From contig JAXHNP010000002.1 in NCBI GenBank assembly GCA_034520365.1, positions 558,001 through 622,000 of the forward strand: a stretch of 64,000 nucleotides of DNA, given 5' to 3'. The notes beneath the pieces were generated by a model. That model saw only the letters and a program-made list of their open reading frames with translations. It was not told where the DNA came from and made no database searches. Source of the stretch: Desulfobacterales bacterium. GTDB lineage: Bacteria; Desulfobacterota; Desulfobacteria; Desulfobacterales; Desulfosalsimonadaceae. Each line of letters starts with the position of its first letter. Positions within the stretch are counted from its first letter, which is position 1. Of this stretch, positions 50,385-54,804 are shown one piece after another. The position numbers and the translations under genes were made by a program.

Positions 50385-50699
50385 CTAGCAGCAGGTGCTG
50401 GATGTACCGCACCCCCCGCAGCCGCCGGCAGACGGCTGGAAGCTGGATGTGATTTCAAAACCGACATTTTTGAAATCAACAGTCACGGGCTGCGCCTCAG
50501 CCAGCAATTCTTTGTTGGCAACAAACTGAAACCCGTTAATATCAAACACCTTGTCTTGTTCTGTTGGGTCATCCAGACCCAAAGCCAGTGACGGCCCGCC
50601 TCACCCAGCGGAATTCAAAAACAGCCGAATCGGGCGTATTTCCTTATCCTGAAAAAACTCCTTAATTTTTTCCTGTGCGGATTCGGTGACTTCAAACAT
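50385..50699 (-). CDS. HesB/IscA-like selenoprotein (in-frame UGA)
   Basis: 104 codons from the ATG at 50699 (AGGAGGG four bases upstream) to TAG, interrupted by one TGA at codon 33 (50601-50603). The frame is otherwise continuous: MFEVTESAQEKIKEFFQDKE before, GGPSLALGLDDPTEQDKVFDI after, and the ending GGCGGCGTSSTCC. The TGA stands at the first conserved Cys of IscA proteins (LNSAG-U-GGP), the place where the known HesB-like selenoprotein family carries selenocysteine. A hairpin sits 20 nt downstream. Probably an iron-sulfur or redox protein; activity unknown. Reading only the 65-residue downstream frame would lose the N-terminal domain. Confidence 0.9.
50566..50600 (-). promoter_or_regulatory. 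Candidate bacterial SECIS hairpin
   Basis: Immediately after the UGA the RNA folds to GGGUC-UGGAU-GACCC (50566-50580), extendable by UU/AA and a CUG/CAG pair across a bulge. Its apical loop is ~25-30 nt from the UGA, within the spacing of bacterial SECIS elements read by SelB. Confidence 0.6.
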
Positions 50700-50885: not shown

Positions 50886-51454
50886 CAGGGCTAATTTGTT
50901 CTGTATCCAAATCGAAATCGCTATCGGGATCGGGATCGAAATCGAAAAAATATGACCCTTGGACACGAAAAACTGGACGTCTATCGCCTTTCAATAGGCT
51001 ACGTTGCATGGGTTTACGAGAAGGCCGACAGCCTGAACGGAGTCCATCGGCCCGCCCGGGATCAATGGCTTCGGGCCAGCCAGTCGATACCGCTCAATAT
51101 CGCCGAAGGTAATGGCAAGACCGCGGAAGCCGACCGAAGGCGTTATTTCGAAATCGCTCGTGGCTCCGCGCTTGAGTGCGCGGCGATTCAAGATGTGCTG
51201 GTTGTCGGCAAGGCGCTGGACAAGATGGAAAGCCGGAACCGCAAGGATGAACTCGACCGTATGGCCGCGATGCTCAGCCGTCTCGGCGGAAGAGGATACC
51301 AAGTTCGAGAGGATCAGGAAGTCTACAGCATCGATTTCGATCCCGATAGCGATTTCGATCCCGATTTCGATCCCGATAGCGAAGAAAACGAATCCCAACC
51401 TTAGCGTTAACAGGACCGGGGGTATGGATTTGGCGTTAGAACAAATTAGCCGTG
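50886..51454 (+). mobile_element. IVP-type four-helix-bundle mobile element, copy C (569 bp)
   Basis: Ends CAGGGCTAATTTGTTCT / AGAACAAATTAGCCGTG. Target duplication GATCATCGC at 50877-50885 and 51455-51463. Inserted between the selenoprotein gene and ndk. It has one more Asp-Phe-Asp-Pro coding unit than copy D and two more than copy A. Confidence 0.9.
50952..51404 (+). CDS. Four-helix bundle protein, copy C
   Basis: 150 residues, identical to copy A except for Leu in DELDR and the longer tail IDFDPDSDFDPDFDPDSEE. Intact and in frame, so it is probably expressible. The 5' leader (CGAAATCGCTATCGGGATCG) is complementary to the part coding for the tail. The next gene, ndk, has its own strong ribosome-binding site, so no operon is implied. 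Confidence 0.88.
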   Translation: MTLGHEKLDVYRLSIGYVAWVYEKADSLNGVHRPARDQWLRASQSIPLNIAEGNGKTAEADRRRYFEIARGSALECAAIQDVLVVGKALDKMESRNRKDELDRMAAMLSRLGGRGYQVREDQEVYSIDFDPDSDFDPDFDPDSEENESQP

Positions 51455-54251: not shown

Positions 54252-54804
54252 CACGGCTAATTTGTTCTGTATCCAAATCGAAATCGCTATCGGGATCGGG
54301 ATCGAAAAAAATATGACCCTTGAACACGAAAAACTGGACGTCTATCGCCTTTCAATAGGCTACGTTGCATGGGTTTACGAGAAGGCCGACAGCCTGAACG
54401 AAGTCCATCGGCCCGCCCGGGATCAATGGCTTCGGGCCAGCCAGTCGATACCGCTCAATATCGCCGAAGGTAATGGCAAGACCGCGGAAGCCGACCGAAG
54501 GCGTTACTTCGAAATCGCTCGTGGCTCCGCGCTTGAGTGCGCGGCGATTCAAGATGTGCTGGTTGTCGGCAAGGCGCTGGACAAGATGGAAAGCCGGAAC
54601 CGCAAGGATGAACTCGACCGTATGGCCGCGATGCTCAGCCGTCTCGGCGGAAGAGGATACCAAGTTCGAGAGGATCAGGAAGTCTACAGCATCGATTTCG
54701 ATCCCGATCCCGATTTCGATCCCGATAGCGAAGAAAACGAATCCCAACCTTAGCGTTAACAGGACCGGGGGTATGGATTTTGCGGTTAGAACAAATTAGC
54801 CGTG
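54252..54804 (+). mobile_element. IVP-type four-helix-bundle mobile element, copy D (553 bp)
   Basis: Perfect 17-bp inverted repeats CACGGCTAATTTGTTCT ... AGAACAAATTAGCCGTG. Perfect 10-bp target duplication CAATCCCTTA at 54242-54251 and 54805-54814. The insertion lies only 32 bp upstream of the REC-GGDEF start codon, separating that gene from its original promoter. Confidence 0.92.
54313..54753 (+). CDS. Four-helix bundle protein, copy D
   Basis: 146 residues, starting MTLEHEKLDVYRLSIGYVAWVYEKADSLNEVHRP (Glu at position 4 and Glu in NEV instead of Gly). The tail is IDFDPDPDFDPDSEENESQP. The longer frame from 54226 is an artefact of reading across the left inverted repeat. Intact. Confidence 0.88.
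   Translation: MTLEHEKLDVYRLSIGYVAWVYEKADSLNEVHRPARDQWLRASQSIPLNIAEGNGKTAEADRRRYFEIARGSALECAAIQDVLVVGKALDKMESRNRKDELDRMAAMLSRLGGRGYQVREDQEVYSIDFDPDPDFDPDSEENESQP

Follow-up and report, generated by a model that had tools for sequence, protein, structure and literature searches.

The 64,000-nucleotide stretch of Desulfobacterales DNA analysed here (the window) carries a gene that almost certainly encodes a full-length, 104-residue protein of the IscA/HesB type, with the UGA at codon 33 decoded as selenocysteine (Sec). This reading is drawn from sequence comparison. The gene occupies positions 50385 to 50699 on the minus strand and consists of 104 codons followed by a TAG stop; it is defined by its translation with TGA read as U, by a match to the curated family NF038090, and by its homologues in related genomes. 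The initial annotation had given the correct coordinates but left the minus strand unstated. On the plus strand, the same positions yield an unrelated translation with nothing recognizable. On the minus strand, the frame runs from an ATG at 50699 to the TAG at 50387-50385, preceded by the good ribosome-binding site that had been described (AGGAGGG, 50710-50704), and the UGA of codon 33 (50601-50603, minus strand; context LNSAG-U-GGPSLALGLDDP) is its sole interruption. Conventional gene calling leaves a 65-residue C-terminal piece, as had been anticipated: the open reading frame list gives 50385-50582 on the minus strand, with a TTG start.

Family membership and predicted fold

The closest curated family of the protein is NCBIfam NF038090 (IscA_HesB_Se), which was matched with 109 bits (cut-off 85) over residues 1-96 of the read-through protein and positions 1-101 of the profile. 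The likeness extends over the whole length, and no difference that would set the protein apart from this family was found. Scored in parts, the piece after the UGA alone reached 63 bits, and the 31 residues before it matched the same profile independently with 28.5 bits (E 1.4e-6). The Pfam family PF01521 (Fe-S_biosyn) was matched by the read-through protein with 31.6 bits (cut-off 26.3) and with 25.7 bits in a whole-genome search where UGA counts as a stop. The initial assignment as HesB/IscA-like is borne out by these matches, with the refinement that the closest family is NF038090 and not TIGR01911 (HesB_rel_seleno). The latter belongs to the same superfamily, and the protein shares with it a Sec in the UxGP motif given for the HesB-like selenoprotein (PMC13188914), here UGGP, but its score of 32.3 bits lies under the TIGR01911 cut-off of 66.35. 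The scores against the IscA, SufA, and ErpA equivalogs were likewise below the respective cut-offs (34.8/150.6, 30.2/136.2, and 22.5/117 bits). With these A-type Fe-S carriers, which contain Cys only, the protein has in common the fold and the position of the first conserved Cys; it differs from them by these scores, by Sec in place of Cys, and by a different Cys-rich tail. This tail (C94-x-x-C97 ... C103-C104; 50388-50420, minus strand) has C94, C97, and C103 conserved in at least 90% of 40 aligned homologues, chosen from the 151 homologous places described below. The IscA tail is CGC, unlike the C94xxC97 spacing found here. All 40 members of alignment A1 matched NF038090 at E ≤ 0.001.

By sequence, the nearest relatives of solved structure are AQ_1857 and E. 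coli IscA. Their conserved Cys aligned under the UGA in two alignments, in agreement with the earlier claim that the UGA stands at the first conserved Cys position. Nine PDB chains were found at E ≤ 0.001, all of them IscA, SufA, HI1723, DsrR, or AQ_1857. A structure model built on an 18-row alignment reached a pLDDT of 72.9 and was weakest at residues 31-33 and 89-99 (pLDDT <50); it therefore does not predict how the Sec site is arranged and serves for the fold only.

The family as such is already known: the curated NCBI model has 'Se' in its name, and HesB-like selenoproteins have been published, in 2006 for Geobacter, Desulfovibrio, Syntrophobacter, and others (PMC1794560). The statement of the initial annotation that such proteins are known in this group thus has a published basis for the Deltaproteobacteria from 2006 or earlier. 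For NF038090 itself, no paper was found in the open-licence literature. Of 297 genomes sampled from the whole phylum, 125 had a match over its cut-off, many with a TGA somewhere in frame.

Codon 33 in homologues and the selenocysteine machinery

Homologues were searched in 146 genomes drawn from the genus, family, and order of the window, its own genome included, and a match was obtained in 130. No homologue at E ≤ 1e-5 was found in 16 of the 146 genomes, and three more (G040, G068, G092) had weak unlisted matches only. The comparison comprises 151 places, that is, 150 listed matches (149 loci) plus the paralogue from the window's own genome, or 150 loci in all; the count excludes weaker matches that were not listed, including every match of the three genomes just named. 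At codon 33, TGA was present in 123 of the 151 places and a Cys codon in the other 28 (TGC 18, TGT 10). No other codon occurred, neither TAA nor TAG, and the column was never Trp. Counted by genome, the UGA form was found in 121 of the 127 examined and Cys only in 6. These places thus display the pattern that marks a bacterial selenoprotein, an in-frame UGA at a position where homologues have Cys. For the 52 codons after the UGA, dN/dS ranged from 0.02 to 0.15 in 13 hand-chosen pairs (one with the Cys orthologue L057), 4 of which are near synonymous saturation (pS ~0.7). These values indicate that the codons downstream of the UGA are under purifying selection.

Were the UGA a genuine stop, the gene would be a pseudogene or a truncated open reading frame, maybe restarting at the TTG of the 65-residue piece that standard calling yields. 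We regard this as very improbable, since UGA recurs at codon 33 in 123 of the 151 places with TAA or TAG in none, the downstream codons show the low dN/dS values given above, and the 31 residues upstream match NF038090 on their own. A sequencing or assembly error, with a TGC or TGT read as TGA, would fit the TGC of the same-genus relative L057, but UGA stands in 122 further places of other genomes, and the window gene retains a 7-bp hairpin that is lost in L057; an error is extremely improbable.

Trees and scans add some context to these counts. In a tree of the 151 rows (quick method), 73 of 148 inner branches were open, and at least 10 Sec/Cys changes would be needed on it, or 4 when starred branches only are counted; from this tree, only the pairing of the window gene with L057 (SH-aLRT 99) is relied on. 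A profile scan of the genome contigs with alignment A1 returned 17 loci; the profile has C at the Sec position, so only Cys-coded genes are findable in this way. Viral contigs scanned with the window protein, a search that finds close relatives only, contained no relative.

The genome of the window encodes SelA (623 bits), SelB (361 bits), a tRNA-Sec with anticodon UCA (78.2 bits), and SelD (382 bits). All four genes, selA, selB, selC, and selD, scored over their curated cut-offs, so that the complete machinery inferred by the initial annotation was indeed detected. SelD itself has an in-frame UGA (SGUAAKLGP), in the UxxK motif given for this protein (PMC13188914). Among the 146 genomes, SelB was over the cut-off in 120 and tRNA-Sec in 119; SelB and/or tRNA-Sec were detected in 118 of the 121 genomes with the UGA form, and both went undetected in the other three (G042, G125, and G136, which are 79-89% complete). 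The initial annotation had named two outcomes that would speak against its reading, a genome without selB or selC and homologues that stop at the same place without downstream conservation. Both were examined and neither was seen.

Decoding of the UGA as a standard amino acid such as Trp instead of Sec, through code reassignment or a suppressor, is very unlikely. Nothing was found in favour of such decoding, whereas 46 of the 123 UGA-form genes themselves terminate with UGA, the codon 33 column holds UGA or Cys and Trp in 0 of 151 places, and the Sec machinery of the genome is complete.

A second selB match was observed in 12 of the 146 genomes. In all 11 of the corresponding regions that were fetched from these relatives' genomes (L114/L224, L149/L223, L160, L222, and L225-L231; G131:C70 was left out), a second tRNA-Sec(UCA) is encoded on the same strand no more than 0.5 kb upstream. 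Some of the second SelBs are without the DTDR-type stretch, which we take to be the usual SelB motif. In three of the regions (L114, L149, and L160), a Cys-codon HesB gene clusters with the second selB and tRNA-Sec. The idea that this tRNA-Sec reads the Cys codons of the neighbouring HesB genes as Sec was rejected, because its anticodon is UCA wherever it was found. Genomes with several tRNA-Sec genes are on record (PMC5330540). On second selB genes nothing was found in the open-licence literature, and the available text of PMC5330540 gives no selB-linked second copy for this group.

The hairpin downstream of the UGA

The initial annotation had pointed to a hairpin after the UGA. It is located at 50564-50582 on the minus strand and has a 7-bp stem (UUGGGUC/GACCCAA) and a 5-nt loop (UGGAU); 18 nt separate it from the UGA (start at offset 21, with the U of UGA as 0), and the loop follows at 25 nt. 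Published rules for bacterial SECIS elements (bSECIS) ask for a loop of 3-9 nt, an upper stem of 4-16 bp, a G within the first two loop positions, a distance of 16-37 nt from UGA to loop, and an MFE ≤ -7.5 kcal/mol (PMC13188914). The window hairpin falls within all of these limits and, folded alone, is the centroid structure with -10.2 kcal/mol. Taken by itself, the window sequence has an unexceptional folding energy (z = -1.30, equalled by 23 of 200 shuffles). The assignment as a bacterial SECIS hairpin is based on conservation, covariation, and codon constraint in the UGA genes.

In a fixed register, on average 5.6 of the 7 stem pairs were formed in UGA genes compared to 2.6 in Cys genes, and shifting the partners by 1-3 bases left at most 3.4 pairs in UGA genes. 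The loop reads UGGA in 123 of 123 UGA genes. Measured against synonymous recodings, the stability of the hairpin had a mean z of -1.17 in UGA genes and 0.09 in Cys genes (Mann-Whitney p 4e-8), and 31% of the 123 UGA genes were within the best 5% of recodings compared to 3.6% of the Cys genes. Exceptions occur on both sides: four pairs or fewer were formed in 7 of the 123 UGA genes, and 5 pairs are kept in 2 of the 28 Cys genes. The outer pairs 21-39 and 22-38 (formed in 15/123 and 83/123 UGA genes) did not exceed the shuffle level, which leaves the inner 5-6 pairs as the conserved core of the hairpin.

Covariation was found at the pair of offsets 25 and 35, which in UGA genes is C-G in 89, T-A in 28, and G-C in one, the window gene; the remaining 5 have a C-A mismatch. 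It is thus paired in 118 of 123 UGA genes, a number reached by none of 500 shuffles (mean 95.8), and in 7 of 28 Cys genes. The T-A state was present in 28 of 29 UGA genes of family f1, and C-G in 89 of 94 UGA genes of the other families. Since T-A is confined to f1, the independent double changes may be just two, one of them in the window's own lineage, whose copy stands out among the 123 UGA genes by a Gly41/Asp44 variant of the hairpin. At the protein level, the pair corresponds to covarying codons 41 and 44, with the combinations GCT-GAG, GTT-GAA, and, in the window, GGT-GAC. Codon choice is equally biased at neighbouring sites. Leu42 is encoded by CTG in 122 of 123 UGA genes, compared to 221 of 675 Leu codons elsewhere in these aligned stretches. 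Ala41 is GCT in 89 of 93 UGA genes; among the remaining Ala codons of the stretches this holds for 109 of 780, and at the same site in Cys genes for 6 of 18. As judged from the aligned genes, codon use at the hairpin shows selection on the RNA. Taken together, codon choice and compensatory change conserve the core of the hairpin in UGA genes, and most Cys genes have lost it. An RNA signal is in this way tied to the choice of amino acids, with the SECIS pair 25-35 coupling residues 41 and 44.

The steps of the SelA/SelB/SelD/tRNA-Sec pathway are established knowledge. At the UGA of the window gene, SelB would bind the hairpin 18 nt downstream of the codon and bring Sec-tRNA-Sec to the ribosome; the latter would be made by SelA with selenophosphate from SelD.

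Cys forms, gene neighbourhood, and predicted function

In a sister species of the same genus (G003), the orthologue L057 is found in a syntenic place, flanked by genes resembling lon and prepilin peptidase (named by eye) and by ndk. It has TGC at codon 33 and retains 2 of the 7 hairpin pairs. The G003 genome, which is 71% complete and in 650 contigs, yielded no SelB at E ≤ 1e-70 and no tRNA-Sec at E ≤ 1e-10. The window's family contains 29 UGA genes, with Cys alone in G003 and G024 only. Because most of the family has UGA, we infer for G003 a change from Sec to Cys accompanied by decay of the SECIS. Sec-to-Cys changes are on record for HesB-like proteins, with two events listed (PMC1794560). 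Two other genomes of the genus (G001 and G002) possess SelB and tRNA-Sec and gave no homologue at E ≤ 1e-5, so in part of the genus the gene has either disappeared or escaped the search.

The window's own genome also contains a paralogue in the Cys form (L054/L204, C6:1124550-1124870), which is 35% identical to the window protein and scores 79.7 bits against NF038090, just below the cut-off of 85. Its flagged TGA proved on inspection to be an ordinary stop. A count of stops is for this reason no evidence by itself, and codon 33 was read directly in the homologues. Across the phylum sample, at least 14 of the 297 genomes (G159, G184, G219, G231, G259, G279, G305, G311, G329, G351, G372, G392, G412, and G427) have two NF038090 matches separated by roughly 1 kb at most, of which one contains a TGA somewhere in frame and the other does not. 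These are candidates for recurrent tandem Sec/Cys pairs.

The window gene is flanked by a gene for a DUF401 membrane protein, by a repeated cassette with an open reading frame for a 23S rRNA IVP four-helix-bundle protein, and by ndk. In the fetched stretches, ndk was present at 54 of 123 UGA-form loci and at 1 of 27 Cys-only loci. At 56 of the 123 UGA-form loci, a macro-domain gene of the same orientation is located 92-392 bp upstream; none of the 27 Cys-only loci has one. Because the loci are related and some are truncated by contig ends, neither set of counts is independent. The copy at L058 is O-acetyl-ADP-ribose deacetylase-like (NF001664, 218.5 bits, cut-off 200). No macro-domain gene was found beside the window copy. 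A Sec-ligated carrier of Fe-S clusters or metal that shares one pathway with an ADP-ribose-handling macro-domain enzyme could be imagined, and selenium would then couple Fe-S delivery to the control of ADP-ribosylation. We consider this unlikely, as the 56 related loci may simply have inherited a common gene order and contig ends interrupt many loci. No paper that treats selenoproteins, macro domains, and HesB together was found in the open-licence literature.

The repeated cassette is about 550 bp long, contains the 23S rRNA IVP open reading frame (PF05635), and is flanked by hexamer runs of the GATCGG/GATTTC type. In the window, it occurs at 50886-51435 and 54252-54784, with more copies from about 36166 and 42984. 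At least 40 copies are present in the genome (500+ bp, 91-100% identity; 40 of 88 candidates scored). One cassette adjoins the HesB gene and another its Cys paralogue L054.

The product would have the predicted fold of an A-type Fe-S carrier, with Sec33 where IscA has its first conserved Cys, and the tail cysteines C94xxC97...C103 would be likely partner ligands or thiols for Sec33. From the fold and the conserved residues, we lean slightly towards a site for metal or an [Fe-S] cluster formed by Sec33 together with the tail cysteines. The protein could also be a thiol/selenol redox switch or a chaperone, in which Sec33 is joined to a tail Cys as a selenenylsulfide redox pair and no Fe-S cluster or metal is carried. 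The C94xxC97 spacing, unlike that of the IscA tail, would agree with such a pair. Most uncharacterized selenoproteins are thought to have redox functions (PMC13188914). The clear A-type carrier fold and the position of the Cys argue against the selenenylsulfide pair, which on the same residues appears possible but rather unlikely. A HesB-like selenoprotein of Methanococcus maripaludis was identified through mutagenesis and labelling with 75Se; the authors call its function not clear and mention, as an unpublished result, that a disruption mutant fixes nitrogen normally (PMC11097638). For the window protein, a general thiol/Fe-S role of anaerobes may be envisaged.

To the known family, the present analysis adds strong SECIS conservation and covariation, a Sec/Cys pair within one genus, and the linkage to a macro-domain gene. 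A gene otherwise truncated by ordinary annotation is recovered, and it almost certainly represents a conserved selenoprotein gene of these bacteria, with the UGA form in 121 of the 127 genomes examined.
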